A program made the translations under genes and the position numbers. The notes beneath the pieces are model-generated. The model was not told the DNA's origin, made no database searches, and saw only the letters and a list, made by a program, of their open reading frames with translations. Of a stretch of DNA of 64,000 bases, positions 14,072 through 35,664 are shown in pieces (the stretch's first letter is position 1; every line of letters starts with the position of its first letter). Origin of the DNA: Aporrectodea caliginosa (taxonomy: Eukaryota; Annelida; Clitellata; Crassiclitellata; Lumbricidae); the NCBI GenBank assembly GCA_020284085.1, contig JACEVL010000150.1, positions 481,392-545,391 on the forward strand. The letters are read 5' to 3'.

Positions 14072-14150
14072 ATGGACGGACATACCTTTCGTTTGCTGTT
14101 TGTCCTCGGACTCATCTGTACAGCGATGGCCGAGGATGAAAACTGCGAAT
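14072..14150 (+). CDS. gene A exon 1 (signal peptide)
   Basis: 26 codons plus one base. The 30 nt encoding [10 protein letters not shown] are identical to those in B, C and D. Donor GAAT|GTAAGT. Confidence 0.85.
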
Positions 14151-15635
14151 GTAAGTCTCTGCAGAGCATAACAACTTCTCAAGTAATTTCAGTGAGCATA
14201 CTTCGTCTTTTAAGATTCAGAGGCAAACGAAAAGAAAGCCTATTTCGAACACTGGCGATTCTATGAATACATGGTGGGGGTCCGATAGCGCATTGGAAAA
14301 CACACTGGCATAGAGAGCGAGAGGTACCGAGATCGAGTTCCGTAGGCGGACATGCTTTGTAGGCTGCTATTAGCGCCGTGTTTTGCAGGCTGTAGTGGAA
14401 GGATAATTGATAACTAATGATTCTATGTGTAACAGTTAACAATAATTATACAAGTGTTATCTAGATAACATGATGATAGATGTCTAGATAATGTTGCGTT
14501 AGTAGTTAAGATTTATGTCTTCTGTCATTTGTGTTCTTGTTAATTGTTTTAATTGCATAACTGTACACTGTAACCGGATGCGCTTTGTCAACCGGATTGT
14601 TTCAATAAAGAATATTATTACATTAGTCATATTTTCATGGGATTCTTTGATCTTTTCTTCATCTTCGTTTCTTCCTTTCGCTCCCGCACAACGGTCTCTC
14701 TTCCAACCGACTCAGATACATTTCCAAATTTAATTCACTCCTTTCGATAAGTAAGTATATTCTTTATTGAAAAACCAACTGATAACCGCATTTTGGTGTA
14801 CATAGTTAATAGATAAAAAATAAGTTTAAGTATAAAGCGTCTGTGTGACAAATGTTTTACGAGATAGAGAGTTTGCCTCAAATTTGATTCTATTGTGGTT
14901 CTGGGGCGTAGCGAGTATGAAGCAATTTTCATGGGAGGCATTAGCTGATGCAATACATGCTCAGGGTTTTTTCGTTTTTAGGTCATTTCCTAATACTGTC
15001 TAACAGTAGGATATTACTTTTTAACTCTCGATACCCACACTCTCATATACAGGTCTACACATGTTTACGGAAGTAGTGGTGAATTGTATGGGGAAATATG
15101 TCTAGAGGAACAGGTTGTCTGCTTATTCACCAAAGGCTGCAGTGTGTCTCTGTCTTACGGACTGATCTTCTGGATATTGACCTGATTACGGCTTGGTTTT
15201 GGTGCGCCGTCTGTTGATGCCTTATGTATTTAGACACCGACGCAATAGAAGTTACTAAATACAACTTGTAGATTGTCAATCAATATCCAGAAGATCAGTC
15301 CGAAAGTCACAGAGGCAGCCTTTGGTGGATAAGAAGACAACCTATTCTTCTGGACACAAATCTATACATACAATACAATTACATGTCTACACATTGCAGG
15401 TTCTTGGACCGAATTGGCGGTATTCACGGCAGCTGGCATAGCACCCGGCAGCTATGCAGCCTGGCTGATGTCATCTGCAGCAGCTGCCAACGGTGGTGGA
15501 GTGGCCGCTGGTGGCGTCGTAGCCACGATGCAGTCGATCGGGGCAGGTGGTCTTGGTGTTGGAGCCAAGGCTGGAATTGTTTCAGCTACGGCTGCTGCTT
15601 GCAACGCGGTTAAATGTTCGAGGGGAAGAAATTAG
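14072..15635 (+). CDS. ISG12/IFI6-like gene A, first hydrophobic segment missing
   Basis: Two exons, 14072-14150 and 15400-15635, joined in phase 1 across GTAAGT and TTGCAG, encode 104 residues. Residues 1-20 are a signal peptide ([14 protein letters not shown]), followed by EDENCEC. Exon 2 carries the family core: an [20 protein letters not shown] stretch matching the Ifi-6-16 motif of vertebrate IFI6 and IFI27, then an Ala/Gly helix ending [12 protein letters not shown]. Compared with paralogues B and D, about 20 residues of the first hydrophobic segment (AVATVV-type) are gone. Members of this family are small hydrophobic membrane-active proteins, interferon-induced in vertebrates and acting on mitochondria, ER or virus; role here unknown. 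The nearest relative is the decayed copy at 22950. Confidence 0.8.
15400..15635 (+). CDS. gene A exon 2 (hydrophobic core)
   Basis: Follows acceptor CACATTGCAG in phase 1 and ends with TAG at 15633. Contains [20 protein letters not shown] and the Gly-rich family motif. Confidence 0.8.
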
Positions 15636-16009
15636 ACGACCCTCAACCGTCGGTCATCCAAAAGATATCTAACGTTAAGATATCGACTCGAAAGATGACA
15701 TAGTTTAGAAGATATATTTGTATGATTGTTAACTATTAGACATAGATTCTGAATCATTAGGCCTAGTTATCTAATATCTAGACAACATTTGTATAATTGT
15801 TAACTGTTACACTTAGACTCATTAGTTATCAATTGTCCTTCCACTATACGGAAGGAATTCTTGTCATTATAAAGCGACTAAAACCAGGTCAAACAGAAAT
15901 AACAATTCCATCTATCTTGAAAGCATACACGTATGCATATCTTATCCTAGCAGCCTGCGTGGTACCTGCATATGCGTGAACCTATTTGTGTATCTGGTAA
16001 CTAGGACTT
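15636..16009. other. 3' flank of gene A
   Basis: AT-rich; homologous to the flank after the decayed copy (23140-23290), sharing AACGTTAA, GATATTTGTAT and TAATCATTAG-like motifs. This extends the duplication beyond the exon. Confidence 0.5.
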
Positions 16010-16600
16010 TTATATATACTGCCAATGACATTCAGGTTTGTATTGATTTTCGCATGTAGATGGTCTTAAGTAGACGTTGTTGAGGTTTGAAGTTCGTGCA
16101 AGAAGACACGTACTTAAGAAGTCCAATTTCATTTTACTAGTGAACGAACGTAGCCTACTTAAAACGTCCCGAAAGAACTGTTCAGGCGCGGCTAGAGTTT
16201 CCTCACTTGAAGTTCGCTTGTAAACAACTAATGTTCAGTTAAATAAGTTCGGCCCTCTGGACAACCTCTCTTACTTGACGCAGCGCTCGTGACTAAGCTG
16301 CTGTCCTGCGTATTCCTTGTAAGTTGCGGTGACGATTACGAACTGAAATGCGACGACAGTTGGCTCTGGTAGGTCTTTGTTGTTAGTGCAATCTTCAGCT
16401 TCATCGATGAATGCTACGAAGCAGAAGCCGATCTATACGAGTGTCTGTTTACTTTGCTTATTATGATGACACAGTTGCTATTTGGTTAGAACGCAGGTCT
16501 TGTAACGCTAACAGTAGCCTACGGGTTCGAGTCTTCTTCCCTGAGACGGTTACTACTGCGTAGGGACCTTCATCAAATACTTATTTCAGAGACTTATACT
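16010..16600 (+). repeat. duplicated block X with a tRNA-like 3' part
   Basis: About 600 bp closely matching 22250-22865, starting at ACTGCCAA(T/G)GACATTCAGG. It ends in a tRNA-like stretch TTGGTTAGAACGCAGGTCTT followed by the B-box GGGTTCGAGTC. Block X may be a SINE-bearing element or part of a segmental duplication; its order relative to A-type exon 2 differs between the two copies. Confidence 0.6.
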
Positions 16601-16689
16601 ACTAAATCTAAATCAAATTAGGCACGTATACAAATAGGTGAAGTAATGTATAAATATAAAAAAATCTCCCGATAACCTTTACCTCTTTC

Positions 16690-16900
16690 TTTCCCACTAT
16701 TAAACACCTCAAAGTGACTAGAAGTAATTGTACTTACTCCTATCCTCTTGTCAGAACGAATGTTCATAAGTTATCTATTAATTACCAAGGTCCATTCATG
16801 TGGAATAACCTCCCGCACGAAATTAAGACGGCTGCAGGTCTCTCACAATTTAGATGTTTAATTAAAAATCATGCACTATATAACAATAATCTATAATTCT
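16690..16900 (+). mobile_element. LINE reverse-transcriptase C-terminal fragment
   Basis: A 60-codon frame ending at 16896 reads YPLVRTNVHKLSINYQGPF, then MWNNLPHEIKTAAGLSQFRC. The G-P-x-x-W-N-x-L-P-x-x-I pattern is the conserved C-terminal tail of non-LTR retrotransposon ORF2 proteins. The rest of ORF2 is absent (5' truncation). Confidence 0.75.
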
Positions 16901-17339
16901 CCAGTTCTTTTTTGTGCTATACTAAGATACTAAGGTTTTTTATTATTACTTAGCCTTTATCACACTTTCACCGTGTGTGTAGATATATTATACGTTGGAA
17001 GTCGCCGCCACCAGTAATTCAATCTCTCTAAACATCTTACGAACGTATATAATATATTACATCTCTGCAGCTTAAATTCCTCTACAGAAATTCAAGACAA
17101 TTGATTGATTTAGATTTTCTTATCTATAGAGGGTCATCAAACCGAATTTCTTATAATGCTTGCTTAAGCCACTCTGCAGTTAATAAAACATATATATGTA
17201 TAATATATATAAAATATATTTTATATATATCTGCATTCTGCACTCCTGCGCTACCTGAAAGTGTCTTTACACATTTTCCAGAAACCGTTTTCCGATCTGG
17301 AAAATAGTACGCCATCTGATGCGAAACCAACCTGATTGA

Positions 17340-17535
17340 TTACAATACCTGGGATCTAAATATACCGACCAGTAATTTTGGTTGTTGTCTGTGTCTAAGT
17401 GATCGTATCGCTAGTTACGATCATTTGCATATGGAAATAATTATTACCATTAGGTGAATTCAGTTGGCCTTAGACGAGTCTGTTGGATTTGAGTCGCTCA
17501 ACGGGACAAGAAGAGACGTAAGAAGACGACGTATA
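17340..17535 (+). promoter_or_regulatory. promoter and 5' UTR of ISG12-like gene B
   Basis: Shared TATA-like CTAAATATACC at 17356-17366. A perfect octamer ATTTGCAT (reverse of ATGCAAAT, the POU/Oct site) lies at 17423-17430. The 5' UTR GGATTTGAGTCGCTCAACGG is nearly identical in C and D. Start site and factor are inferred. Confidence 0.5.
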
Positions 17536-17668
17536 ATGGATGCCCCTAGCTTACGTTTGCTGTTTGTCCTCGGACTCATCTGTACAGCGCTTGCCAAAGA
17601 CAGAGGATGCCAGTGTAACTCAAAGCAGTGTATTTGTCCAGGGTCAGCCAAAGACGAGGGATGCGAAT
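17536..17668 (+). CDS. gene B exon 1 (signal peptide plus duplicated Cys module)
   Basis: 44 codons plus one base, 54 nt longer than the other first exons. Donor GAAT|GTAAGT at 17669. A degenerate donor-like TGTAACTC inside it (17613-17620) corresponds to the paralogues' true donor. Confidence 0.8.
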
Positions 17669-19531
17669 GTAAGTCTCTTATATGCACCGCGGCTTTTAAT
17701 TAGGCTACTTATTGTAAATTAGTCTCTTAAAGTTCAGTAGAAAATTTATATATTGCTCTCGTTTTGAACAATGTCGCATCCAGAACAGTACATAGCCTAT
17801 AGATCAGACAAAAAGACCTTTCTTTTCCCTAGTCATCATCAAATTTTCCTTCAGTGCACTTTCTTACTTTTTCTTTCTCTTCTTATTCTGCAGTTTTTTC
17901 TTCTAAATTTTAAGAATTAAGATATTTTCAACATGTTTGGAAAGCCCTATTTTGTGTCTAATGATATTTAGATTAGGCCTATCTATTTTTGAGCAAAACA
18001 GCATTTCTGTCTCCAATGAATTATGAAATTGACCCAATAGTCACTCTCGACCTACTCTTGATTTTGTACTTATACGATACTCAGGTCACATATGGCATAG
18101 ATATCTGCATGCGTCAGACCCAGTACTTCATCCTAAAGATCCGTTAATAATATTCTTTTTGCCTTATATTCTGGTTTCTAAATGACAGACCTGTACGCTT
18201 TGATATGTATGCCTATAGAGTATGCTTTCATGGCGTGCATGCATGTATGCCTGTATGTATGCATATGTATATATATGTATACAATATTCGTTTATTGACA
18301 ATCAAGTTTGATACAAACGCAACTTTGTTACATTATGAGGTTGCAAATGGAGAGCTTAGGACTGTAGCTCTGTGCTTTTTATGTATGTATGTATGTATGT
18401 ATGTATGTACGTATGTATGTATGTATGTATGTATGTATGTATGTATGCATGTATGTATGTATTGTATTGTATTGTATTGTATTGTATTTGAACACTTGTT
18501 GTAGCGCCCCAACCAGATTTCCCATTCAGAGGCGCTCCCGACTACTGCGCGAACGCTGAATCGGAGTTTCACGCCGAAGCGCATGAGCAATTGCGAGTGA
18601 AGGACTTGCCCAGGGTCCCTACGCGGCGACTTTGAGGTGGATCCGAACCCGCAACCCTCCAGCTGCAAGGCACCGAACATACCCCTACACCACCGCGCCC
18701 CAGTATATTGTGATGTGTTGTATTGTGTGTTGTATTGTACTCCACGTTTATAATGCGACCGAGCCACCCGCAGTAAAGATCCGAGAAATTAATCTCTGAT
18801 AATCCGACCCGACCGGGAAGCGAACCCGGGGCGCCGGCGCGGCGAGCGGGCACCAACCCACTCGGCCACTGTATGTATGTATTTATCCGCGTCATGGGAC
18901 GCGGTGGTGTAGGGGTATGTTCGGTGCCTTGCAGCAGGAGGGCTGCAGGTTCGAATCCACCTCAAGCCGCCGCGTAGGGACCTTGAGCAAGTCCTTCGCG
19001 CACAATTGCTCTGCAATATAATTGCTTCTGCGCCACTGAGGCGTGTGCACTTCTGAGCTTGGGGCAACCTTTGTAAGAATGGCGATATTAAAGATCAGTT
19101 GTATTGTTTTGTATTAAATGTATGTGCGCTGTCGTATAGCAAAGGGCTTCGCACGATGGAACCTCGAAGTTAAATAGATAGCATTTATTTTAAAAAAATA
19201 ATATCTAACTGTAGGTTCCGCCGCAGAGCTTGCCGCTTTGGGGGCCAGTGGAGCCGTGGCTACCGTTGTTGCAGCCCCTCTCGCCGTCGCAGCGGCTGGT
19301 TTCACATCGGCTGGCGTAGCAGCAGGTAGTCTCGCTTCTTGGCTGATGTCAGCAACGGCTGTTGCCAGCGGAGGAGGCGTGGGAGCTGGAAGTCTTGTAG
19401 CCTTCCTACAGTCGGTCGGTGCCGCGGGGTTTAGTACTGCGGGATTTGCTGGTTTGGCGGCCACTGGTGGAACAGCTTTAGCGGCTGCCTGCAGCAAAAT
19501 TAAGTGCGAATATAAGGCACGATTTGATTAG
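17536..19531 (+). CDS. ISG12/IFI6-like gene B, full length with duplicated Cys module
   Basis: Exons 17536-17668 and 19215-19531 (phase 1 GT-AG intron) encode 149 residues. Signal peptide residues 1-20 ([15 protein letters not shown]) precede a unique Cys-rich insert: GCQCNSKQCICPGS, then a second AKDEGCEC. Exon 2 has three Gly/Ala-rich hydrophobic segments: GASGAVATVVAAPLAVAAAG, then GVAAGSLASWLMSATAVASG, then the family motif GGGVGAGSLVAFLQSVGAAG, and ends ALAAACSKIKCEYKARFD. Paired cysteines at both ends of the hydrophobic core are shared by the family copies here and suggest a disulfide clamp (inference). The insert looks like a duplication of the exon 1 end including the old splice donor: TGTAAC in the first copy replaces TGTAAG. 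The intron carries two SINE types and a TGTA repeat. Confidence 0.85.
18375..18487. repeat. (TGTA)n and (TATTG)n repeats in gene B intron
   Basis: TGTA units at 18379-18460 run into a TATTG pentamer run, which is the reversed (CAATA)n tail of the adjoining SINE. Confidence 0.9.
18463..18702 (-). mobile_element. tRNA-derived SINE, family 1
   Basis: On the minus strand it starts GGGGCGCGGTGGTGTAGGGG (A-box TGGTGTAGGGG), followed by GGTTGCGGGTTCGGATCC (B-box). It ends with TTGGGGCGCTACAACAAGTG and a (CAATA)n tail. Other copies lie at 18893, 25759, 26313 and 62725. This is not a functional tRNA gene: there is no acceptor stem pairing or anticodon arm by eye. Confidence 0.85.
18706..18875 (-). 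mobile_element. tRNA-derived SINE, family 2
   Basis: Minus-strand head AGTGGCCGAGTGGGTTGGTG resembles a Ser/Leu-type tRNA 5' half, with B-box GGGTTCGCTTCCC. The body ends CGGTCGCATTATAAACGTGG and a (TACAA)n tail that runs into the family 1 copy, so the two form a composite. Confidence 0.8.
18893..19115 (+). mobile_element. tRNA-derived SINE, family 1
   Basis: A-box GGTGGTGTAGGGGTATG, B-box GCAGGTTCGAATCC, and the same GACCTTGAGCAAGTCCTTCG body. The 3' end diverges (ACCTTTGTAAGAATGGCG). Confidence 0.8.
19215..19531 (+). CDS. gene B exon 2 (hydrophobic core)
   Basis: Acceptor TAACTGTAG, phase 1 entry, TAG stop at 19529-19531. Adds EYKARFD after the KIKC end, whereas C and D stop at KIKCG. Confidence 0.85.
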
Positions 19532-19968
19532 TTGGAGAGAGGAATAGCATCTATATAGGCCTACTTATTACGACTATCTCCCAGTGGTCTTCTAGTAACC
19601 TGCATTTCTCTCATGCATACAGGTCTATTCTTCCAACCAGTTCAGACTATCTTCCGCTGAAAATTCATTTCCCATTAAACATTTATTTTCTGGTGAATTT
19701 CACCTCTGCCATTGGTCTTTCCTGTCTAATTCCATCATTAATTGCGCCCTCGCGATTAGAATTTTTATTCTGATGATTATTCAAACTATGATCAGATAAA
19801 TGTGTATGGAGGTTGACTTTTCTAAAATTAGTTGTGTTTGGAAAGACAATAGGGAAATTTGGTTTCTTCTTTGTGGAACGTGATCATCAACTGTAATGGA
19901 CTGTGTCCAGGAAAAGAAACACTTTCGAAAATTATTATTAAATTGAGGACGAACTTTTGAATTTCAAA
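19532..19968. other. 3' flank of gene B
   Basis: Homologous to 26907-27406 and 35665-36110. All three share ATTTCCCATTAAACATT, giving a candidate ATTAAA polyadenylation signal at 19674-19679. Confidence 0.55.
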
Positions 19969-19972
19969 TTAA

Positions 19973-21833
19973 CACTAGAAGTACCGAGAAAACAAACTTC
20001 CTAGAAGCACCAAGGGGGTCATTTTGACCCCACATAATTTATAATGTAAAGTCAATTGCAAATTCAATGAAATTGACTATCAACTTTATTAACATAAATT
20101 ACATAAGCATAAACAAGTGTAATAAGTAAGTTGGAATGGAATAATAGGAGATCCTCTCCTCTCACCAGATCTCCTATCCTCTCGCCAGATCTCCTCCGCT
20201 CTCACTAAATCTACTATCCACTCACCAGATCTCCTATCCTCTCACCAGATTTCCTACCCTCTCACCAGATTTATTATCCTCTCACCAGATCTCACCCTAT
20301 CTTCTCGCCAAATCTCCTATCCTCTCACCAGATCTCTCCTCTCACCAGATCCTCTCTCCTCTCACCAGATCTTCTATCTTCTCACCAGATCTCCTCTCCT
20401 TTCACCAGTTCTCCTATCTTATCACCAGATCTCCTCTCTTCTGACCAGATATTCTTTCCTCTCACCAGAGATCTCCTCTCCTCTCACCAAATATCGTCTT
20501 CTCTCACCAGATCTCTCTCCTCTCACCAGGTCTTCTCTCCTCTCACCAGATTTCTCTCCACTCACCATATCTCCTCTCCTCTCACCAGATCTCCTCTGAC
20601 CAAGTCATCCTTCTCGCCAGATCTCCTATCCTCTCACTTGATCTCCTCTCCTCTCACCAGATAGACTACCCTCTCACCTGATCTCCTATCCTCTCACCAG
20701 ATCTCTCCTCTCACCAGATCCTCTCTCCTCTCACCAGATCTTCTATCTTCTCACCAGATCTCCTCTCCTTTCACCAGTTCTCCTATCTTATCACCAGATC
20801 TCCTCTCTTCTGACCAGATATTCTTTCCTCTCACCAGAGATCTCCTCTCCTCTCACCAAATATCGTCTTCTCTCACCAGATCTCTCTCCTCTCACCAGGT
20901 CTTCTCTCCTCTCACCAGATTTCTCTCCACTCACCATATCTCCTCTCCTCTCACCAGATCTCCTCTGACCAAGTCATCCTTCTCGCCAGATCTCCTATCC
21001 TCTCACTTGATCTCCTCTCCTCTCACCAGATAGACTACCCTCTCACCTGATCTCCTATCCTCTCACCAGATCTCTCCTCTCACCAGATCTTTTTCCAACT
21101 AGATATTCTCTTCTCTCACCAGATCTGTTCTTTTCTCACCAGATCTCCTCTCACAAGATCTCCTTTCCTCTAACCAGATCTCCGCTCCTCTCATCAAATC
21201 ATCCATCTCCCCAGATCTCCTATCCTCTCACCAGATCTCCTCTTCTCTCCCCAGATCTTCTTTCCCATCGCCAAATGTCCTCTCCTCTCGCCAGATCTCT
21301 AATTCTCTCGCCAGATCTCCTATCCTCTCACCTGATCTCCTCTACTCTCACCCGATCTCAACTCCTCTCGCCAGATCTCCTATCCTCTCACCAGATCTCC
21401 TATCCTCTCACCTGATCTTCTCTCCTCTGACCAGATCTTCTTTCCTTTCACCAGATCGCCTCTCCTCTCACCAGATCTCCTCTTCTCTCACCAGATCTCC
21501 TCTCCTCTCACCAGGTCTCCTATCTTCTCACATTTGATTACGTAATTAGCTTTGATCTATAATATTATTGAATAGAAAACAAGGAATGTGTAGCCTTACA
21601 TGCAAGTACTAATACAGGGGTCAGATTGACCCCTCGGTGCTTAAAGGTAGAACAGCAAAAATCTCAGAAATTGTGAATACCCCCGAGTTCAAATTTTGGC
21701 AGATGGTATACCCTACGAAGTTAGGAGAAGTCGTGAAATTACAGGACCCGGGCTATATCTGGGGCCGAGGTGCGTTCCGCTGAAAACCAAAAGGGGTCAG
21801 ATAATCAGATTGACCCCTTTGGTGCTTCTAGTG
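19973..21833. mobile_element. piggyBac-like non-autonomous element on a TTAA target site
   Basis: TTAA duplications at 19969-19972 and 21834-21837 flank terminal inverted repeats beginning CACTAGAAG(T/C)ACC. The matching paralogous flank at 27407-27410 has a single TTAA and no insert (TTTCAAATTAAACTACTTAG), which is a precise empty site. Subterminal palindromes of the GGGGTCA-TTGACCCC type occur at about 20010, 21617 and 21793. No transposase frame is present. The interior is a minisatellite. The termini and TTAA preference fit the piggyBac superfamily (CCCTAGAAAG-type ends). Confidence 0.85.
20145..21533. repeat. CTCACCAGATCTCCTCTC minisatellite inside the piggyBac-like element
   Basis: About 75 units of 17-20 bp. 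A 369-bp segment starting at 20331 repeats almost exactly at 20700 and begins again at 21069, so a recent longer tandem duplication sits on top of the short unit. Confidence 0.9.
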
Positions 21834-21837
21834 TTAA

Positions 21838-22249: not shown

Positions 22250-22865
22250 GCTTTATATAGACTGCCAAGGACATTCAGGTTTGTATTGATTTTCGCAAAG
22301 ATACATGTAGATGGTCTTAAGTACATGTAGACGTTGTTGAGGTTTGAAGACCGTGCAAGAAGGCACGTACTTAAGACGTTCCATTTCATTTTACTAATGA
22401 ATGAACGTAGCCTACGTAAGACGTCCCGAAAGAGCTGTCCAGGCGCGGATAGAGTAACCTCACTTGAAGTTCGCTTGTAAACAACTAATGTTCAGTTAAA
22501 TAAGTTCAGCCCTCTGGACAACCCCTCTTACTTGACGCAGCACTCGTGACTAAGCTGGTGTTCTGCGTATCCCTTGTAAGTTGCACTTTACCTTACGGTG
22601 ACGATTACGAACTGTAAAGCGACGACAGTAAATGGCTCTGTTAGGCCTTTGTTCTTAATGAAATCTTGAGCTTGATCGATGAATGCTACAAAGCAGAAGC
22701 TGATCTATACGTCGAGTGTCTGTTTATTGTGCTTATTATGATGACACGGTTGATATTTGGTTAGAGCGCAGGTCTTGTAACGCTGACAGTACGGGCTCGA
22801 GTCTTCTTCTCTGAGACGGTTACTACTGCGTAGGGACCGTCATCAAATTCTCCACTTACAATTGC
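22250..22865 (+). repeat. duplicated block X, second copy
   Basis: Near-copy of 16010-16600, including the tRNA-like TTGGTTAGAGCGCAGGTCTT. Here it lies before the A-type exon 2 remnant rather than after the A gene. Confidence 0.6.
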
Positions 22866-22949: not shown

Positions 22950-23140
22950 AATGCAAAATATTGGTTGAGCTGTACAAACTGCGGCTTCTGGCGTCCTTGG
23001 TTTCACGGTAGCAGCTGGCATATCAACCGGCAGCTTTGCAGCCTTGTTGGTGCCAGCTGGACTTGATGCTGCCATGGAGCCAAAGCTGGAATTGGATCCA
23101 CAGCTGGTGCATACAGCGCGATTACATGTTCGTAGAATGA
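22950..23140 (+). pseudogene. decayed ISG12-like exon 2 (A type)
   Basis: Resembles gene A exon 2: CACGGTAGCAGCTGGCATA, CCGGCAGCTTTGCAGCCT, GGAGCCAAAGCTGGAATTGG and ATTACATGTTCGTAGAATGA. The frame is broken, the central Gly-rich part is deleted and no exon 1 lies nearby. The 3' flank also matches that of gene A. It is a remnant of a duplicated A gene. Confidence 0.75.
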
Positions 23141-23299: not shown

Positions 23300-24000
23300 G
23301 AAAACAATTTTGAGACGATTAGCTAAAGACAATGTATTTGAGAAAACGAAGGTCATGAAGGTAACCACTTAACGAAGTGGAGACGAATGAGTCATAGTGC
23401 GCAAAATCATTCATTCATTCATTCCGAGAATGCAGGGTGGTTTCTGCATGAGCTGTTATCGAGCCGGAGAGACGCCTGTAGTATAGGCTACTGTATGACT
23501 ATAACCCCGAAGAGGGAAAGTACAACATATTTACCATTACCATTTTCATTTTAATTGTTATATAAGTAATTGCCAACTTCTACAGCGCCTGTGTTTATTG
23601 CACAAGGCTTCAAGCGATGGCGTACAGTGCACCGCGGGTAGATATATTATACGTTGGATGTCGCCGCCACCAAGTAATTCAATCTCTCTAAACTTCTTAC
23701 GAACGTATAAATATATAACATCTCGGCAGCCTTAAACTCCTCATTCAAGATAATTGATTGATTTAGATTTTCTTATCTATAGAGGGTCAAAAACCGACTT
23801 TTTATAATGCTTGCTTAAGCCACTCTGCCGTTAATAAAACACACACACACACACATATATATAATATATATAAAAATATATTATATATATATCTGCATTT
23901 TGCACTCTTGCGCAACCTGAAAGTGTCTTTACACATTTTCCAGAAACCGTTTTCCGATCTGGATAATAGTACGCCATCTGATGCGAAACCAACGTGATTG
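23300..24000. other. duplicated upstream block of gene C
   Basis: Segment 23360-23640 matches 33355-33600 (upstream of D), and 23630-24000 matches 16970-17340 (upstream of B). Contains a short CA run (23839-23855) next to TATA repeats. Confidence 0.55.
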
Positions 24001-24206
24001 ATTACAATCGCTGAGATCTAAATATACCGACCAGTAATTTTGGTTGTTGTCTGTGTCTAAGTGATTGTATCACTGGTTACGATAATTTGCATATGGAAGT
24101 CAATAAGAGCAGATTATTACCATTAGGTGAGTTCAGTTGGCCTTAGACCAGTCTGTTGGATTTGAGTCGCTCAGCGGGATAAGAAGAAACGTAAGAAGAC
24201 GACATT
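24001..24206 (+). promoter_or_regulatory. promoter and 5' UTR of ISG12-like gene C
   Basis: TATA-like TCTAAATATACCGACC near 24017-24032, octamer ATTTGCAT at 24085-24092, and the shared 5' UTR with GAGTCGCTCAGCGG. Conservation with B across this stretch is much higher than in the introns. Confidence 0.5.
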
Positions 24207-24285
24207 ATGGATTCCTGTAACTTCCGTTTCCTGTTTGTCCTCGGACTCATCTGTACAGCGATGGCCAAAGACGAGGAATGCGAAT
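24207..24285 (+). CDS. gene C exon 1 (signal peptide)
   Basis: 79 nt, same length as A and D exon 1. Donor GAAT|GTAAGT at 24286. Confidence 0.85.
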
Positions 24286-25194
24286 GTAAGTCTCTGAAAC
24301 GCGCAACGGCGGTTTAATTAGACCTATTTATTGAAAATTATTTTCTTAAAATTCAGTAGAAAATTTATATATTGCTCTCATTTTGAACAATGTCGCATCC
24401 AGGCATCCAGAACAATACATGTGGATCAGACAAAAAGATCCTTCTTTTCCTTGAGTCATCGTCAAATTTTCCTTCTTTGCTTTTTCTTACTTTCTCTTTC
24501 TCTTCTTATTATGCAGTTTTTCTAAATTTTCAAGAATTAAGCTATTTTTAACATATTTGGTAAGCCCTATTTTGGGTCCAAGGAAAGTTAGATGATCTAT
24601 TTTTGAGCAATACAACATATCTGTCTCCAATGAATTATGAAAATTAACCCAATAGTCACTCTCAACCTACTCTTCATTTCGTGCTTGAATGATACTCAGG
24701 TCACAAATGGCATAGATGTCTATTTGCGCCAGTGCTTCATTCTAAAGGTCCGCTAATAACATTATTTTTGCCTTATATTCTGGTTTCTAAATTACATATC
24801 TGCGCGCTTTGATATGTATGCCTATAGAGTATGCTTTCATTGCGTGCATGCATGTATGCCTGTATGTAAGCATATGTATGTGTGTATGTATGTATGCATG
24901 TATGTATGTATGTATACAATATTCGTTAATTGACAATCAAATTTTATACAAACTCAGCTTTGTTACATTATGTCTTATGAGGCTGTAAATGGAGAGCTTA
25001 GGACTGTACCTTTTTGTGCTTTTTAATGTATGGATGTAAGGAAGTATGTATGTATGTATGCATGCATGTATGTAAGTATAAATCTATGTATGTATGTATT
25101 AAATGTATGTATGTGTGTGTATGTATGCATGTATGCATCTATGATTAATGTCTGTATGTAGGTTTATCTGTATTCATATATGCATGAATGTATG

Positions 25195-25228
<34 letters not shown>

Positions 25229-25552
25229 TGTATGTATGTATGTATGTATGTATGTATGTATGTATGAATGTATGTATGTATGTATGTATGTATGTATGTA
25301 TGTATGTATGTATGTATGTATGTTTGTATGTATGTATGTATGTATGTATGTATGTATGTATGTATGTATGTATGTATGTGTGCATGAATATATGTATGTC
25401 GATATGTACTATTTATGTATGCGCGTATACTATGCATGCATGTGTATATATAAACATTATATGTATACAACTATACATGTGTATCTGTGCATGCTGTGTG
25501 TATGTATGTATGTATGTATGTATGTATGTATGTATGTATGTATGTATGTATG

Positions 25553-25612: not shown

Positions 25613-25646
<34 letters not shown>

Positions 25647-26906
25647 CATACATACATACATCCATAAAAATTCCATACATTCTCGGATCTTTACTGCGGG
25701 TGGCTCGGTCGCATTATAAACGTGGAGTACAATACAACACACAACACAACACAATATACTGGGGCGCGGTGGTATAGGGGTATGTTCGGTGCCTTGCAGC
25801 CGTAGGGTTGCGGGTTCGAATCGACCTCAAAGCCGCCGCGTAGGGACCCTGGGCAAGTCCTTCACTCGCAATTGCTCATGCGCTTCGGCGTGAAACTCCG
25901 ATTCAGCGTTCGCGCAGTAGTCGGGAGCGCCTCTGAATGGGAAATCTGGTTGGGGCGCTATAACAAGTGTTCAAATACAATACAATACAATACAATACAA
26001 TGTATAATAGGCATATATGTCTGTGTCTATGTATGTATTTATTCATATATGTGTGTATATACGTGATTATACGTTAATCTATGTATGGCTATGTTTATGC
26101 ATGCATACATGTGTGTATATATGCATGCATATCCTGAGTGGCCGAGTGGGTTGGTAGCCCGCTCGTCACGCCGGCGGCCCGGGTTCGATTCGGTCGGTTT
26201 ATCAGAGATTAATTTCTCGGATCTTTACTGCGGGTGGCTCGGTCGCAATATAAACGTGGAGTACAATACAATACAATACAATACAATACAATACAATACA
26301 ATACAATACAACTGGGGCGCGGTGGTATAAGGGTATGTTCGGCGCCTTGCAGCTGGAGGGTTGCGGGTTCGAATCCACCTCAGAGCCGCCGCGTCGGGAC
26401 CCTGGGCAAGTCCTTAACTCGCAATTGCTCATGCGCTTCGGCGTGAAACTCCGATTCAGCGTCCGCGCAGTAGTCGGGAGCGCCTCTGAATGGGCAATCT
26501 GGTAGGGGCGCTATAACAAGTGTTCAAATATAATACAATACAATATATCTAATCTAATCTGGTGGCTTCGATAGCGATCGAAGCAAAAGCCTTCGCACGA
26601 TGGCACCTTGAAGTTAAATAGATATCAGTACATAAATTATTTTAAAAATAATTTCTAACTGTAGGTTCCGCCGTGGAGATTGCCGCTCTTGGGGCCGGTG
26701 GAGCCGTAGCTACCGTTGTTGGAGCCCCTCTCGCCGTCGCAGCAGCTGGCTTCACATCGGCTGGCATAATGGCAGCTAGTTTAGCTGCCTATCTGATGTC
26801 TGTCCATGCACCCAGAGTTGGTACTGCTGGAAATGCTGGTTTGGCGGCGGCGGCAACTGGAGGGTCAACTCTAGCGGCTGCCTGCAGGAAAATTAAGTGC
26901 GGATAA
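24207..26906 (+). CDS. ISG12/IFI6-like gene C, central segment missing
   Basis: Exons 24207-24285 and 26665-26906 (phase 1 intron) encode 106 residues. The signal peptide contains [13 protein letters not shown]; the mature N-terminus is KDEECEC. Exon 2 keeps the first hydrophobic segment ([20 protein letters not shown]) and the C-terminal Ala/Gly helix ending [11 protein letters not shown]. The central part holding the diagnostic GGGVxxGSLVAxLQSxGAAG motif is replaced by VHAPRVGTAGNAG, a deletion of roughly 20-30 residues that keeps the frame. The intron (2.4 kb) carries TATG repeats, a large inverted repeat and two composite SINEs. Loss of the signature motif could make this a distinct effector or an early step to a pseudogene; the open frame and intact splice sites favour the former. 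Confidence 0.8.
25195..25380. repeat. (TATG)n microsatellite in gene C intron
   Basis: About 45 units with single GAATG and GTTTG variants. Reading frames over it (MYVC, THIH) are artefacts. Confidence 0.95.
25393..25615. repeat. inverted repeat around TATG/CATA tracts
   Basis: Arms at 25393-25420 and 25588-25615 (TGTATGTCGATATGTACTAT and its reverse complement) are perfect over about 28 bp and border a (TGTA)n run (25498-25582) and a (TACA)n run (25612-25665). The transcript could form a long hairpin in the intron. Confidence 0.8.
25682..26001 (+). mobile_element. composite SINE (family 2 3' end joined to family 1)
   Basis: Family 2 tail CTTTACTGCGGGTGGCTCGG ... AACGTGGAGTACAATACAAC, then family 1 head GGGGCGCGGTGGTATAGGGG, B-box GGGTTCGAATCG, ending GGGGCGCTATAACAAGTG and (TACAA)n. 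The junction ACAATATACTGGGGCGC is identical to that of the minus-strand composite at 18463-18875. Confidence 0.8.
26135..26550 (+). mobile_element. composite SINE (family 2 plus family 1)
   Basis: Full family 2 head GAGTGGCCGAGTGGGTTGGT with B-box GGGTTCGATTCGG and a (TACAA)n linker (about 26263-26311), then family 1 with A-box GGTGGTATAAGGGTATG and B-box GGGTTCGAATCC. Confidence 0.8.
26665..26906 (+). CDS. gene C exon 2 (shortened hydrophobic core)
   Basis: Acceptor TAACTGTAG, TAA stop at 26904-26906. Upstream intron sequence (CGATGGCACCTTGAAGTTAA) matches that before B exon 2. Confidence 0.85.
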
Positions 26907-27708: not shown

Positions 27709-27738
<30 letters not shown>

Positions 27739-28238
27739 TGTATGTATGTATGTATGTATGTATGTATGTATTTATGTATGTATGTATGTATGTATGTATG
27801 TATGTATGTATGTATGTATGTATGTATGTATGTATGTATGTATGTACGTATGTATGTAGGTATGTATGTATGTATGTATGTATGTATGTATGTATGTATG
27901 TATGTATGTATGTATGTATGTATGTATGTATGTATGTAGGTATGTATGTATGTATGTATGTATGTATGTATGTATGTATGTATGTATGTATGTATGTATG
28001 TATGTATGTATGTATGTATGTATGTATGTATGTATGTATGTATGTATGTATGTATGTATGTATGTATGTATGTATGTATCTATGTATGTATGTATGTATG
28101 TATGTATGTATGTATGTATGTATGTATGTATGTATGTATGTATGTATGTATGTATGTACGTATGTATGTATGTATGTATGTATGTATGTATGTATGTATG
28201 TATTATTTATGTATTATGTATGTATGTATGTATTTATT

Positions 28239-28269
<31 letters not shown>

Positions 28270-28348
28270 GTATGTATGTATGTACGTATGTATGTATGTA
28301 TGTATGTATTATTTATGTATTATGTATGTATGTATGTATGTATTTATG

Positions 28349-28379
<31 letters not shown>

Positions 28380-28428
28380 GTATGTATGTATGTACGTATG
28401 TATGTATGTATGTATGTAAGTATGTATG

Positions 28429-28459
<31 letters not shown>

Positions 28460-28476
28460 GTATGTATGTATGTATG

Positions 28477-28519
<43 letters not shown>

Positions 28520-28790
28520 GTATGTATGTATGTACGTATGTATGTACGTATGTATGTATGTATGTATGTATGTATGTATGTATGTATGTATGTATGTATG
28601 TATGTATGTATGTACGTATGTATGTACGTATGTATGTATGTATGTATGTATGTATGTATGTATGTATGTATGTATGTATGTATGTACGTATGTATGTAGG
28701 TATGTATGTATGTATGTATGTATGTATGTATCTATGTATGTATGTATGTATGTATTTAATATGTATGTATGTATGTATGTATGTATGTGG
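27709..28790. repeat. 1.1-kb (TATG)n array
   Basis: Over 250 units, with TACG, TAGG, TAAG and TTATTTATG variants. A longer block with TATTATTTATGTATTATGTATG recurs about 28201 and 28308, so part of the array grew by larger duplications. Confidence 0.95.
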
Positions 28791-28990: not shown

Positions 28991-29084
28991 CCCCCCCCTA
29001 AGTTTTGACTCGGGAATAGCTATCACCTACAAAAAAATGCAAAAAATCCGGTCCCAAAATAATCTGTCCCCCAAAGTTATGTAC

Positions 29085-29679: not shown

Positions 29680-29800
29680 GTAGATGGGGCGGGAAGATGG
29701 TTGAAAGGAAACATGCTGGCACGAAGATCAGAAGGACGTGGATTCGATACCCGTTAGTCCCATAAGGTTGATTCAACCTTCCACTCCTAGAGCGAATTGA
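29680..29800 (+). mobile_element. tRNA-like SINE head
   Basis: GATTCGATACCC (29751-29762) resembles a B-box, with a degenerate A-box-like GGTTGAAAGG upstream. No tail was identified. Confidence 0.3.
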
Positions 29801-30175
29801 AAATGAGCAGTGGGACAGATGGGCGTCTTGCATGGCTACCACACAGTTAAATTCGACTCTATATAAACTTGTTATCATCTGTTACTACTCTGTCATGTAA
29901 TCTTACTGCGTACTTGTCAGTTTAAATTAATAAACGAATATCATTATTAATATTATTAGATAAATAAACAGCCTAAGTTTAGGGCGCCTTTATAGTATTT
30001 CGAAAAATGCTTTAAGGGTTTCCCAGCGTACGAGAGATCCTGCAAGCCCGTCTTTTGCATGAAGCCAGTTAAGTAGTGCTTTAGACATGTAGCGTTGGTC
30101 AAGCAACACGAAAAGCTGTCTAGAGCAAAAGAAGTTTAGCATAGCCTGTCCTACAATGCGCTGCAGACACGTCAA

Positions 30176-30477
30176 GGCAACTTGCGATCATTTACTTAGT
30201 GGTGGAGGCTGTACTTTCATGACCTGGGCTAACATTGATATGCAAAGCCTTTTCGAATTGAATCACAAAGATAGCGAGGGTCCAGACCTAAGAGCACCCT
30301 GGATGTAAAAAATAGAATTTTAAACCGAATTCGGGCGATGAGAGGAAGCCAATGGTAAGCACAGAGTGTGATTTTGGTTCACCACTCGCCCTAACCTCGA
30401 CTTTGCTTTGAATATCAATGTTAGCCCAGGTCATGAAAGTACTGCCTCCACCACTAAGTAAATGATCGCAAGTTGCC
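30176..30477. mobile_element. fold-back element with 66-bp inverted repeats
   Basis: Arms 30176-30241 and 30412-30477 are reverse complements with one mismatch (GGCAACTTGCGATCATTTAC ... TAACATTGATAT). The loop is 170 bp. No coding content; no clear target-site duplication is visible. Confidence 0.85.
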
Positions 30478-30480
30478 TCT

Positions 30481-30747
30481 GATCGCTTACTCCGCTCCTT
30501 AGACCGGTATGACCTTCTCGTACCTCGGTCGCGGACTGCTACTGCCCAGCATCGCGCTTATGCATCTGTTGGTCCTATGCTTTGGAATGACCTTCACTCT
30601 ACCATTCGATCTGTGATCTTAACTGGGGGTATTTCGGCTTCTTCTCGTTGTCTTAAGACGTTTCTTTTTTCGCAGAGCTCTTCGCACTGGGAGCGCATCT
30701 GATTGGGTATTACTATGAGAAGGGCTTTATAAAATAATTTCTAAATA
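30481..30747 (+). mobile_element. LINE ORF2 C-terminal fragment
   Basis: Open frame to TGA at 30700 reads DRYDLLVPRSRTATAQHRAY, then ASVGPMLWNDLHSTIRS and SRCLKTFLF, the classic end of a CR1/Jockey/L2-like reverse-transcriptase ORF. The tail GGCTTTATAAAATAATT follows. Confidence 0.8.
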
Positions 30748-30749
30748 CA

Positions 30750-31200
30750 ATACCAATCACCACCGTCACCATCTCCCAACACCATCATCCCATGCGTGTC
30801 CATACAGTCCAGCGGGCTTTCATCTTAACCATTGGAGTGACCTCGACCTTCAGTCACTTGTGGCTCTTCAATCTACCGACCGACACACGACGAATGCCCT
30901 TTCCACGTATTCCTTGGTGCTTCGACGAATAGACGGACGTGCGTCATCTTCCACCAGCGAGGGACTGCTCGTCGGCAGCGTTATCGTGTGTGCGAATGCT
31001 GTCACCTGTCGTCGCTCTACTCTATTGACGCAACTTGGCTCAGAGACTCTGAACATCCATGCCATCTGTCAGCTTTCGATGGGAATCCGTTGGTTGGTGC
31101 CACTTGTGTGCGTGTTGTGACACTTCTAGCTTACTGTGCACTGTTTTGCTAACAGTTACTGATGTAATATTTTCGTTCGTAATGACACTTAACATCATAA
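30750..31200. other. diverged duplicate of 5.1-5.2 kb, then unclassified sequence
   Basis: 30750-30840 (GCGTGTCCATACAGTCCAGC, TTTCATCTTAACC) resembles 5100-5160. The open frame 30860-31120 has no recognisable domain. Confidence 0.4.
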
Positions 31201-31296
31201 TAGGCTAGCGCAGAGAGCGCCTCTGAGTAGATATCTATCTTAAGAGGTGCTACATAAATATAAATTCTCAGAATGAATGAATGAATGAATGAACAC
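31200..31296 (+). mobile_element. SINE 3' tail with (GAAT)n
   Basis: AGAGCGCCTCTGAGTAGATA, GGTGCTACATAAATATAAAT, then GAATGAATG units. Confidence 0.5.
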
Positions 31297-31354
31297 ATGT
31301 CAAGGACAGCTCATTATAGAGTAAGGAAACAAGGAGACCGGCCACTACTCATAA

Positions 31355-31460
31355 AACATGCTGAGGACAAGACATGTTGAGAACAAGACATGTTGAGGAC
31401 AAGACATGCTGAGGACAAGACATGTTGAGGACAAGACATGTTGAGGACAAGACATACTGC
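31355..31460. repeat. GACATGTTGAGGACAA minisatellite
   Basis: About seven 15-bp units related to the array at 5290-5565 (ACAAGACATG(T/C)TGAGG). Confidence 0.9.
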
Positions 31461-31659
31461 GGACAACTTATTAGAGTAAGAAGACCGACGTGATGGTCGA
31501 CTAAGCTTATGATATGTTGAGAACTTCGACTGAGAACTATGATGAACGCGTAGAAGAAGGAGAAGAGCTGAGAGGACATGGATTTATTGAGGTTTCCGAC
31601 GACTTAGGAAGAGGGCGTCCAATGGGAGGCAGATGACTCAAGCTCACGATGACTCATCG

Positions 31660-31862
31660 TGTCAGCAAGCACAGTCGTTGTCGTCAATATCATAATCCTC
31701 ACCATCATCATCATCATGATTATATATCATGGTCATCGCAGAATCGTACCCATAATAAAAAAGGCGTCATCATTAGGCGTGGCATCAATGTCACAGTAGT
31801 CATCATCATAATCATCGTCGTTGTCATCGTTGTTGCTGTCGTCGTTGTTCCAGTTGTAAGGT
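31660..31862. repeat. CAT/CGT triplet region duplicated from 13.2-13.4 kb
   Basis: Shares the order of triplet runs and interruptions with 13150-13430. Confidence 0.6.
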
Positions 31863-32160
31863 CTTGTTGTCTACTGCAACAATAGCGATGTTTACGTGAT
31901 GTTGAAGTTCATTAACTAATCGCCATCCAATACTGCAACTGGTAATTAGGGGGTCCTACTTAGTGGGACCAAGGTCCCTTCTGGTCCCCATATTGTAACC
32001 ACTAACCACTCGAAATACTTGTATGAAATATAATCTGTGTAATACCTGTTTGGCTGGTACAATAAAATGATGGTTATGGTTATTAAGAACGAGTTCGTCA
32101 GTAATAGTCATAGGCGTAGCATTGTATTGTGACGGTGGTTTTACGGTCACAACCAGCTTT

Positions 32161-32191
32161 AAAAGTGGTGGTTACAGTCATCACCACTTTT
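32161..32191. repeat. perfect 10-bp hairpin
   Basis: AAAAGTGGTG and CACCACTTTT separated by 11 bases; a GTGGTTTTACGG motif lies just upstream. Probably part of a small decayed inverted-repeat element. Confidence 0.6.
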
Positions 32192-33350
32192 TGACCCGAT
32201 ACTGAAGTATTTTTGTGGCCGTGACAGCGTTACTTTGACCTGAAGTAAGTTCAGACAACAACAATTAACGGCGGTGTATTCTTGCAAACTTATCTATCGC
32301 AGCACTGTTGAACTCTTCAATGTTAGCTTACCCTTCTATGTTGCACATATAGATGACGTCAACCATCTGGTTAGAGTCAGTGAGGGAGAAGGGAAGGGAA
32401 GAGGGAAGGGGCGATGAAGGTAAGAGCGAATGAACAGCTGACACCTCGCGAAGCCACGCGATCCACGGTTACAAGCTGTTCAGCTGTACAATACAATACA
32501 ATGCAATACAACTGTAGTTTTGTTATTGCCGTCCTTACAAACTTCAGTAGTGCACGCACGTTCGTGCGACAGAACATCGTTGGTTCTGGGTGATTGTGTG
32601 CGAAGTACTTGGCGAAAGTTCTTACACATTGATCAACTGAGTGTTCTTGAACTTGTACTCCACGCGTTACCATCTTATAAGCATTCAAGCATTTCTAATC
32701 CTTACGACCTGAATGGTATCTGTATCGGTGTTCACCTTGCTATTTGTACACGTAGTACTCTAGGTTAGCAGGCACTTATTTTTAATACAGAGCCAATGGC
32801 GTTAATATTTACATGTATACTGCTTTTCGCAAACATTTTTCTTCACGCACGCATGCACGCACCTACATGTAATCCACCCATTTTTCTTTATTCGTGAATA
32901 GACGTGCTTGACACCTCCCGAAATTCTTGTCTACGCGTTGTTACTGTTCTTTAAGAACCTGTTCTCCTTTGACAATGCTCGTCTACTGAGTAAAATAACA
33001 AAACAGTGGACAATGGTGGGACACTCACTGTGTGGACTTGCTCGTGAGTGGTAGATAATTATTGTTCTGAAGGCGGCACAAAACGATAGGAGTCTCTGTT
33101 TAATATGCTTATTAATATTATCTCAAGACGTAGGATGTTAGGTCAGATTTGCGAATAAGCTTAAGCTTATTGTGTTTGTACCAAAGCTAAGTTGTTGCTC
33201 AAATATTGCTTTGCCTTTAATTAGCCTCTCGTATGTATCCGCATCTGGGGGCAAACAAATTAAAATAGGATCAAACTGCGGACACGGAGGGCCTTCGCAG
33301 TTTCAAGGCGATTACACGGAGACTTTTTTTATTTTTTTGAGAAAACTAAA
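32192..33350. other. intergenic, no gene recognised
   Basis: AT-rich spacer with a short (ACAAT)n run at 32487-32512 after a GCTGTTCAGCTGT palindrome. Frames here are short and featureless. Confidence 0.4.
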
Positions 33351-33354
33351 GTCA

Positions 33355-34184
33355 AAAGTTTAACCATTTGACGAAGCGGGGACGAATGAGCCACTGAGTG
33401 TAAATATCAGTGTAGGCTAGGGCTGTTATCGCGCCCGAGAGGACGCCTATAGTATATTGTATGAATAACCCCGAAGATGAAGGTACAGCATAATTATGCA
33501 TTATTAGTATCTTCATTTTAATGGTTATATTATTGATTGCAACTTCTGTAGCGCCTGTGTATAATGCACAAGGCTTCAAGCGGTGGCGCACCACCGCGTA
33601 TAAACGTTGTGTGTCGTCGCCACCAGTAATTCAATCTCTCTAAACTTCTTACGGAAGTACAAGTTTTATAATAATATTATAGGGCCCTATAACTCGGCAG
33701 CTGAATCACTGCTACACTGTGCTACAGAATTTCAAGCCAACCGTTTTACATCTCCTTATCTGTAGAGTGTCAAAACCGCCTTTCTAATAAGCTGTCTTAA
33801 TCCACTAGGCTATGCCGCTAATACTATATGTATACATATATATGCGTATATATAATACTTAAAATCTGCTCGCATGGACTTATGTATCCGTATATAATAT
33901 ATCTGCAGTCTTGCGAAACCTGAAAATGTCTTTACACATTTTCAAAAAACTGTTTTCCGATTCTGTACGTCATCTGATGCGAAACCACCCAGCATGATTG
34001 GTCACAATCGCTGAGATCTAAATATACCAACCAATAACGTATCTTGTTGTCTGCGTCTAAGTGATCGTATCACTTGCATAAGGAGATAATTATTACCATT
34101 TGGTAAGTTCAGTTGGCCTTCGAGGAGTCTGTTGGATTTGAGTCGCTCAACAGGACAAGAAGAGACGTAAGAAGACGACGTATA
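33355..34184 (+). promoter_or_regulatory. duplicated upstream region and promoter of ISG12-like gene D
   Basis: Matches 23360-24206 and, from 33590, 16970-17535. TATA-like CTAAATATACCAACC at about 34018-34032. The octamer site is degenerate here (ACTTGCATAAGG, 34073-34084). The 5' UTR TTGAGTCGCTCAACAGG is conserved. Confidence 0.5.
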
Positions 34185-34263
34185 ATGGATTCCCGTTACT
34201 TACGTTTGCTGTTTGTCCTCGGACTCATCTGTACAGCGCTGGCCAAAGGCGAGGGATGCGAAT
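34185..34263 (+). CDS. gene D exon 1 (signal peptide)
   Basis: 79 nt; donor GAAT|GTAAGT. Reading through the donor would add [10 protein letters not shown] and stop, giving a very short Cys-rich peptide. Confidence 0.87.
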
Positions 34264-35664
34264 GTAAGTCTCTGAAATGCACAATGGCTATTTAATTAAA
34301 TCTTTAAATTATTCAGAGGAAAATTAATATAGCTCTCAAATGAACAATGCCGCATCCAGAAAATACATGTATAGATCCGGCAAAAAAGACCCTTTCTTTC
34401 CTTAAGTCATCACGAAATTATCTTTCTTTACATTTTCTTACTTTCTGTTTCTCTTCTTACACTTCAGTAATTTTTCTAGATTTTTAGAATTAAGTTATTT
34501 TCTACATATTTTGTAGCCTAATTCCCATTTGTGTCCAAGGAATTTGGATGATCTATTTTTTAAGCAAAACTCTCTTTCAAACCAATCTGGTGACTAACAG
34601 CATTCACTTTCCAAAACAGTTATGAAAATTGACCCTGTTGTCACTCTCGACCTACTCCTGATTTCGAACTTACACGATATTCAGGTCGCAAATGGCATAG
34701 ATATCTATTTGCGTCAGTACTTCATTCTAAAAATCCGATAATAACATTCTATTTATATTCTGGCTTCTAAATTACATAATCTGCACATATGAATGCATGT
34801 ATGTATGTATGTATGCATGTATGTATGTATGTATGTATGTATGTATGTATGTATGTATGTATGTATGTATGTATGTATGAATAAATGTATATAATTATGT
34901 AAGTATAAATGTATGTGTGTAATCATGTATGTATGTATCTATCTATCTATGATTTATGCCCGTATGTAGGCCTAGTTTTATCTGTATTGCTATATTTATG
35001 AATGCATGTATGTATGTATGTATGTATTCATGCATGAATATATGTATGCAGATATGTATGTACTCATATATGTATGTATGTACCAATGCATGTATGTGTG
35101 TGTGTATGTAGTCATGTATTATTGTGTGTATGCATCCATGTATGTATTCATTATGTGTGGGTGTGTGTATGTGAGCTTGAGTTAATGTATGTAGGCCTAC
35201 TGTATGTGCTTATGTATACATCCATGTTTGTAAGTATGTAAGTATGCACATATCTGATCTATGACTTCGATAACGAAAGTCGTTGTCATAATATTATAGG
35301 AAAAGGCTACGCACGATGACACGTTGAAGTTAATTAGATAGATGTACTTACTTACTTATGTACAGGTTCCGCCGCGGAGATGGCCGCTTTTGGGGCCGGT
35401 GGAGCCGTAGCTACCGTTGTTGGAGCCCCTCTTGCCATCGCAGCGGCTGGCTTCTCATCGGTTGGCATAGTAGCCGGCACTTTCGCTTCCTGGCTGATGT
35501 CTATAACGGCTGCTGCCGGCGGAGGAGGCGTGGGAACCGGAAGTCTTGTAGCCCTACTACAGTCGATCGGTGCTGCCGGGTTTAGTACGGCTGGAAATTC
35601 TGTTTTGGCGGGAGGTGGAGGGTCAGTTCTAGCGGCTGCCTGCAGGAAAATTAAGTGCGGATAA
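34185..35664 (+). CDS. ISG12/IFI6-like gene D, canonical full-length copy
   Basis: Exons 34185-34263 and 35366-35664 (phase 1 GT-AG intron of 1.1 kb) encode 125 residues, close to IFI6 length. Signal peptide residues 1-20 ([16 protein letters not shown]), then KGEGCEC. Exon 2 has [20 protein letters not shown], an [16 protein letters not shown] helix, the signature [20 protein letters not shown] and a C-terminal Gly/Ala segment ending [12 protein letters not shown]. It lacks the Cys insert of B and the deletions of A and C, so it best represents the ancestral form. Like IFI6, and unlike IFI27 as I recall it, it has a cleavable signal with a cysteine soon after it. Expected to enter the secretory route and insert in or act on membranes (family knowledge); target unknown. 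Confidence 0.87.
34797..34880. repeat. (TATG)n microsatellite in gene D intron
   Basis: About 20 units in the same intronic position as TATG runs in B and C, followed by diverged TATG-like sequence to about 35240. Confidence 0.9.
35366..35664 (+). CDS. gene D exon 2 (hydrophobic core)
   Basis: Acceptor CTTATGTACAG, phase 1 entry, TAA stop at 35662-35664. Confidence 0.87.

Follow-up and report, generated by a model that had tools for sequence, protein, structure and literature searches.

The 64-kb stretch of the genome of the earthworm Aporrectodea caliginosa analysed here (the window, on contig C149; coordinates are positions within it) includes a tandem array of four genes for proteins of the Ifi-6-16 family (also called FAM14), to which vertebrate IFI6 belongs. 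Family membership, a separate leader exon, cysteines flanking the domain, tandem duplication and partial losses between copies can all be read directly from the DNA. The array represents a new branch within a known family rather than a new system. On balance, we favour the view that its products are members with a putative signal peptide which insert glycine/alanine-rich helices into membranes of the secretory pathway, and which are likely to be stress- or virus-induced effectors like vertebrate IFI6 and shrimp IFI6-16.

The array and its membership of the Ifi-6-16 family

Gene models were rebuilt from the letters of the window using the ATG, GT donor, AG acceptor and reading phase. This gave four two-exon genes on the plus strand, spanning 14072–35664, as the earlier note on this DNA had proposed with exact outer coordinates. 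A relic and several repeated blocks accompany them:

14072..14150, plus strand: gene 1 exon 1, leader with Cys-x-Cys (from the ATG to a phase 1 GT donor)
15400..15635, plus strand: gene 1 exon 2, Ifi-6-16 domain from which the first hydrophobic stretch is missing, Cys-x4-Cys end (AG acceptor; PF06140)
16009..16581, plus strand: spacer downstream of gene 1, with a copy at 22252–22851 just 5′ of the relic (86.6% identity, blastn)
16979..18472, plus strand: 5′ half of the unit of gene 2, which includes exon 1 but is largely non-coding, with a copy at 23638–25112 in the gene 3 unit (81.6%, blastn)
17536..17668, plus strand: gene 2 exon 1, leader with a Cys-rich insert (gene model)
17593..17646, plus strand: insert of 18 codons in gene 2 exon 1, starting with a second A-K-D-x-G-C-x-C copy (gap in the other six alignment rows)
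19215..19531, plus strand: gene 2 exon 2, complete Ifi-6-16 domain (PF06140, 75.6 bits; match to PDB 2loq)
22999..23132, plus strand: frame-shifted relic of an exon 2 of the gene 1 type, no longer with the signature (local alignment score; tblastn pieces)
24207..24285, plus strand: gene 3 exon 1, leader and Cys-x-Cys (gene model)
26665..26906, plus strand: gene 3 exon 2, Ifi-6-16 domain after in-frame loss of the signature core (PF06140, 25.4 bits)
34185..34263, plus strand: gene 4 exon 1, leader and Cys-x-Cys (gene model)
35366..35664, plus strand: gene 4 exon 2, complete Ifi-6-16 domain (PF06140, 66.3 bits)

The products of genes 1 to 4 are 104, 149, 106 and 125 amino acids long. The corresponding introns measure 1249, 1546, 2379 and 1102 nt and are all of the GT-AG type, in phase 1 and start with GTAAGT. 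Each product begins with a hydrophobic leader which, judged by its form, resembles a signal peptide: one or two arginines are followed by an unbroken hydrophobic stretch and then by A-x-A. Each also carries Cys-x-Cys at the exon junction and Cys-x4-Cys near the C-terminus. All four genes have intact frames and splice sites and keep their mature cysteines, which number four per product and eight in gene 2. The phase 1 introns and paired cysteine motifs of the earlier note are therefore present throughout the array, and the signal peptide that it listed corresponds to these signal-peptide-like leaders.

The sole Pfam family matched by the array products up to an E-value of 1 is PF06140 (Ifi-6-16, FAM14), whose curated cut-off is 29.1 bits. 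Genes 1, 2 and 4 lie well above this value with 65.7, 75.6 and 66.3 bits (E-values 3e-21 to 4e-18). Gene 3 lies below it with 25.4 bits (E 1.3e-5). This profile search had been fixed beforehand as a test that could refute the family assignment, and its outcome is that three of the four genes pass the cut-off. Together with the genome itself, it supports the view that an invertebrate, here an earthworm, possesses a tandem multigene group of this family. In addition, residues 36–135 of gene 2, the only product submitted, match the solved structure 2loq of IFI27L1 (E 1.6e-13), which we take to be the human protein. The feature compared with IFI27L1 is the Ifi-6-16 domain.

The core G-G-G-V-x2-G-x2-VA-x2-QS-x-G is found in the products of genes 1, 2 and 4, that of gene 1 being a variant of the signature. 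Among 43 homologues (window genes left aside), two core glycines and the glutamine are invariant and most other core positions are at least 90% conserved. The GGGV..LQS..G core is absent from gene 3 and from the relic. A signature shared by four genes and a relic, as first described, therefore applies to genes 1, 2 and 4 and not to the other two. We file gene 3 only as a putative derived core-less paralogue, placed in the family by homology to its neighbours and by its grouping with genes 2 and 4 and the homologue P0006 (97/91) in the tree described below.

Relatives in other organisms and elsewhere in the genome

A single-sequence search recovered three proteins only, P0001–P0003, which are 63–67% identical to gene 4. 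These hold the leader, C-x-C and C-x4-C in one uninterrupted frame, on contigs of 921, 902 and 1129 bases. Since these contigs are shorter than the span of any array gene (from about 1.5 kb upwards), they have the appearance of spliced transcripts and, because they encode the joined product as one frame, they support the exon join of our models. A profile search returned 532 proteins, of which 120 are listed; an anchor in the domain was obtained for 109 of these but not for the other 11. The named proteins among the 120 are mostly vertebrate IFI27-like, with mussel, shrimp, crayfish, oyster and sponge members in addition.

By a crude hydropathy rule, 24 of the 109 anchored homologues have a leader-like N-terminus, and eight of the 24 have cysteines on both sides of the domain. 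The eight are from mussel, shark, ray and caecilian, together with one further protein and P0001–P0003. Both C-x-C and C-x4-C occur only in P0001–P0003 among the 109; C-x4-C alone is also found elsewhere, for example in the caecilian IFI6 P0017. On these alignments, the C-x-C/C-x4-C cysteine frame is so far seen only in the array, in a further A. caliginosa gene on contig C1160 (below) and in P0001–P0003.

A tree of 19 rows is weakly resolved, with 3 of its 16 inner branches starred. It joins gene 1 to P0030 (92/91) and genes 2–4 to P0006 (97/91), and leaves the C1160 gene in a poorly resolved group with P0001–P0004, P0007 and P0017. From these pairings, the array seems to mix two lineages older than the species. 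A search of titles and abstract starts of open-licence papers found none on Ifi-6-16 genes of earthworms or other annelids.

In two of the other homologues, there are links between Ifi-6-16 and RING-type sequence. P0069 of Crassostrea gigas carries PF06140 beside the RING-type domains PF13920 and PF14447 (precomputed Pfam). P0100 of Cherax is RING-type by its source name and has PF06140 as its sole listed domain.

Across the searched assembly (1.098 Gb in 4544 contigs) there are at least 30 Ifi-6-16 matches, all at or above the cut-off, which were sorted into types by eye from their open frames. Of the 30 listed, the Cys-flanked type comprises only four, the dispersed gene on C1160 and genes 1, 2 and 4, gene 3 being below the cut-off. 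The C1160 gene is a fifth intact gene of the array type, with its own leader exon upstream and a phase 1 donor. When the genome was searched at the protein level with P0001, 13 matches were obtained; the best four are the C1160 gene and genes 4, 2 and 1, and gene 3 is tenth.

Five other matches, on C911 and C142 (L009, L010, L011, L012 and L014), form one open frame with a similar long C-terminal tail. In each of the three that were scanned, this tail is a SUMO-like domain (PF06140 81.7–84.9 bits; Rad60-SLD, PF11976, 26.8–32.9 bits with a cut-off of 23.8). A terminal Gly-Gly is missing from the frames, which end in ALRI, and, for this reason, the SUMO-like part looks like a fixed fusion. The pair of domains was found in none of the 120 listed homologues (of 532). 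A short type accounts for 19 matches (L016–L034), ten of them on C20 and C356 and six within 350 kb on C20. Many of these start near F-R-P-F-G-I-G, several are partial and one contains a stop. One match lies on C522, and another on C1423 has two stops and looks spurious. Leader exons were sought upstream of five loci outside the array. One is clear at the C1160 gene only; a doubtful candidate was seen at L012 and none was found at L009, L013 or L016.

Divergence and duplication of the copies

The array genes had been described as identical in architecture, which they are not. In gene 1, the first hydrophobic stretch is shorter by 21 alignment columns, which are present in P0030, the closest relative of this gene. 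In gene 3, the core has been lost in frame, which makes it 19 codons shorter than gene 4. Gene 2 has gained the 18-codon insert in exon 1, which contributes four extra cysteines. Only genes 2 and 4 are full length within the array. The local alignment of the relic with gene 1 exon 2 scores 62; 300 dinucleotide-preserving shuffles reach 26 at most, and the score against genes 2 and 4 is 22. Its protein-level pieces are weak (tblastn, 23011–23058 and 23076–23132, E 0.39 each). The relic stands by its nucleotide homology to gene 1 exon 2, and not by the signature first attributed to it.

Mostly non-coding DNA was duplicated along with the genes. Besides the two repeats listed above, a further and mostly non-coding block (23452–25270 versus 33422–35246) is repeated with 71% identity, and the 500 nt upstream of genes 2–4 are 85–94% identical. 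The leader exon of gene 1, with about 50 nt of 5′ flank, is 81–84% identical to those of the other three genes. Over the whole coding sequence, dN/dS for gene 1 against genes 2, 3 and 4 is 0.31, 0.36 and 0.34, values obtained with a gene 1 dS of about 1 or more, near saturation, and, as in all pairs, from small substitution counts. The ratio is 0.65 for genes 2–3 and 0.66 for genes 2–4. In each of the six gene pairs, exon 1 shows less synonymous change than exon 2 (Fisher p 0.007–0.12, uncorrected, the pairs not being independent). This is a lead which may point to gene conversion or to a nucleotide constraint on the leader exon, for which the same pattern is expected. As far as can be judged from these comparisons, birth-and-death evolution seems to operate in the array, with genes 2 and 4 full length, part of the domain lost in genes 1 and 3, and one relic.

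Proposed function, surroundings and significance

Several known proteins provide points of comparison. Vertebrate IFI6 (6-16, G1P3; FAM14) shares PF06140 and a similar size (130 amino acids) with the array products, which differ from it by the C-x-C ahead of the domain and by two coding exons as modelled. The caecilian IFI6 P0017 has a leader-like start, a cysteine before the domain and C-x4-C after it. The IFI27-like protein P0060 of Mytilus edulis also has a leader-like start and cysteines on both sides. In contrast to the array, these are W-C before and C-x6-C after, and identity is 30% over 53% of gene 4. Shrimp LvIFI6-16 is, like the array, an invertebrate member with a predicted signal peptide, a transmembrane region and an IFI6-16 domain, but forms its own separate branch in the tree of the paper describing it (PMC9144789). 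The expression and knock-down data are those of the shrimp gene, while the array is known from its sequence. Since at least one antiviral IFI6 gene of an invertebrate, with a signal peptide predicted for its product, had already been published (PMC9144789), the novelty implied in the earlier note was overstated.

IFI6 is reported to be located in the endoplasmic reticulum (ER) and, with the help of BiP, to block formation of the flavivirus replication organelle (PMC8228428). LvIFI6-16 is antiviral, rises 434-fold on infection with WSSV, and its knock-down raises shrimp mortality; it was located in the cytoplasm of transfected cells (PMC9144789). IFI27-like genes are also up in hemocytes of shrimp infected with an iridescent virus (PMC8427283), and in mussel an IFI27-like gene is listed among strongly expressed genes in connection with stimulated hemocytes (PMC4581086). 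By analogy, the array genes may be induced by infection. The leader would be cleaved in the ER, Cys-x-Cys would close by disulphide with Cys-x4-Cys in the oxidising lumen, and the mature product would reside in the ER or in secretory membranes. ER entry, lumenal disulphide closure and membrane insertion fit the array because of its leader, flanking cysteines and glycine/alanine-rich hydrophobic core.

Several observations weigh against this view. Two AlphaFold models of the relative P0001, from alignments of 43 and 75 homologues, are all-helical with mean pLDDT of only 60.5 and 60.6 and, because of this low confidence, do not establish the helices and disulphides. The evidence for induction is mixed. 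For LvIFI6-16, the abstract of PMC9144789 has expression up with poly(I:C), but its discussion has expression lower early in gill after LPS, two bacteria and poly(I:C). In hemocytes of Penaeus monodon, an IFI27-like gene is up when Toll or IMD is suppressed (PMC12707661), so that immune induction is not simple. Finally, dN/dS of genes 3–4 is 1.17, and the exons of genes 2–4 are no better conserved than their introns (84–87% in exon 2 and 84–89% in the first 600 intron nt), both of which suggest weak recent constraint. On this evidence, long-term constraint is visible between the old lineages and not among the recent copies, and its absence among the latter speaks against four fully working effectors.

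These last observations raise the question of whether the array consists mainly of decaying duplicates, with the C1160 gene, and perhaps gene 2 or 4, as the working secreted copy and genes 1 and 3 as truncated by-products. We consider this a serious though rather unlikely alternative. The losses in genes 1 and 3, the relic and the exon and dN/dS values just given would follow from it, and the C1160 gene is the copy nearest to P0001 (73%) and P0003 (78%). However, all four genes retain intact frames, splice sites and mature cysteines, the parts missing from genes 1 and 3 were lost in frame, gene 1 gives a dN/dS of 0.31–0.36 against the others, and a gene-1-type relative, P0030, exists elsewhere.

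It is considerably less probable that the products are secreted antimicrobial or pore-forming proteins which kill microbes, as the earlier note had suggested. A leader, small size, cysteines, the glycine/alanine fraction (0.41–0.46) and tandem copies are, as is generally known, also found in antimicrobial families. However, the mature products are not cationic (4–8 basic and 3–7 acidic residues, giving a net charge of −1 to +1 by residue count), no Pfam family other than PF06140 was matched up to an E-value of 1, and the shrimp relative acts against a virus and was seen in the cytoplasm of transfected cells (PMC9144789). Equally doubtful, in our opinion, is a mitochondrial or other targeting function of the leader, with products that promote or restrain apoptosis at mitochondria. 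Such roles are cited for ISG12a (PMC4581086) and IFI6-16 (PMC9144789), but the leader has the form of a secretory signal and the flanking cysteines would suit an oxidising lumen. As to the idea that the Ifi-6-16 likeness is a chance product of glycine/alanine-rich hydrophobic sequence, suggested by the low complexity of the domain, it can be dismissed for genes 1, 2 and 4 in view of their Pfam E-values, the single family matched and full-length relatives at 63–67% identity.

The secretory-membrane interpretation, which we continue to prefer, can be extended to a broader and quite speculative scheme, to which we attach a low probability. The array would be a disulphide-capped, lumen-facing tandem class in which helix-dropping paralogues (gene 1 without the first helix, gene 3 without the core) tune or block the full-length ones. 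With the SUMO-like fusion class and the large short-exon class, some 30 domain exons in all, it might form a branched, interferon-free effector arsenal that earthworms have made out of the IFI6/IFI27 family.

Concerning the rest of the window, a complexity filter left 103 stop-free frames, of which 20 were scanned against Pfam; these include no exon of the array, and three of them are located in its intergenic spacers. The 20 frames revealed no further host gene, the only matches being weak and below cut-off (zf-RVT 19.4, RNase_H 13.5, PRANC 15.8 and Sec20 13.2 bits). The first two fall at 58890–59760 and are probably remains of a non-LTR retroelement. A dispersed repeat, probably a SINE, occurs at 18456–18734, 25728–26006 and 26311–26545 in inverted pairs that are 94–95% complementary, with tRNA-like boxes seen by eye. 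Searches of the window for tRNA genes and Rfam families gave no matches. Very long tandem repeats occupy 1746–4316, 20152–21531, 27709–28788 and 37616–42876, with units of about 24, 20, 4 and 5 bp. A COX1 search of the assembly gave three matches, on C4544, on C70 and, as a weak piece, on C809. The mitochondrial COI of C4544 is read with AAA as Lys and ATA as Met, and its protein is 97% identical to that of Eisenia nordenskioldi (Lumbricidae), the best named match, followed at 93–94% by the earthworms Amynthas, Polypheretima and Pontoscolex. Code and COI thus agree with a lumbricid earthworm and led to rejection of an echinoderm origin, which the style of the sequence had at first suggested. 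The C70 copy (3435453–3436790, L036) scores the same as that of C4544 and lies inside a large contig, as a recent nuclear insertion or an assembly join.

If the proposed function is confirmed, an annelid would join the animals with expanded, leader-bearing IFI6-like genes. The occurrence of a secretory form with cysteines on both sides in annelid, mussel, cartilaginous fish and amphibian suggests that this form is old or has arisen repeatedly. The compact array, in which nature has deleted single parts of the domain, could then help to show what this interferon-effector domain, still poorly understood, requires.

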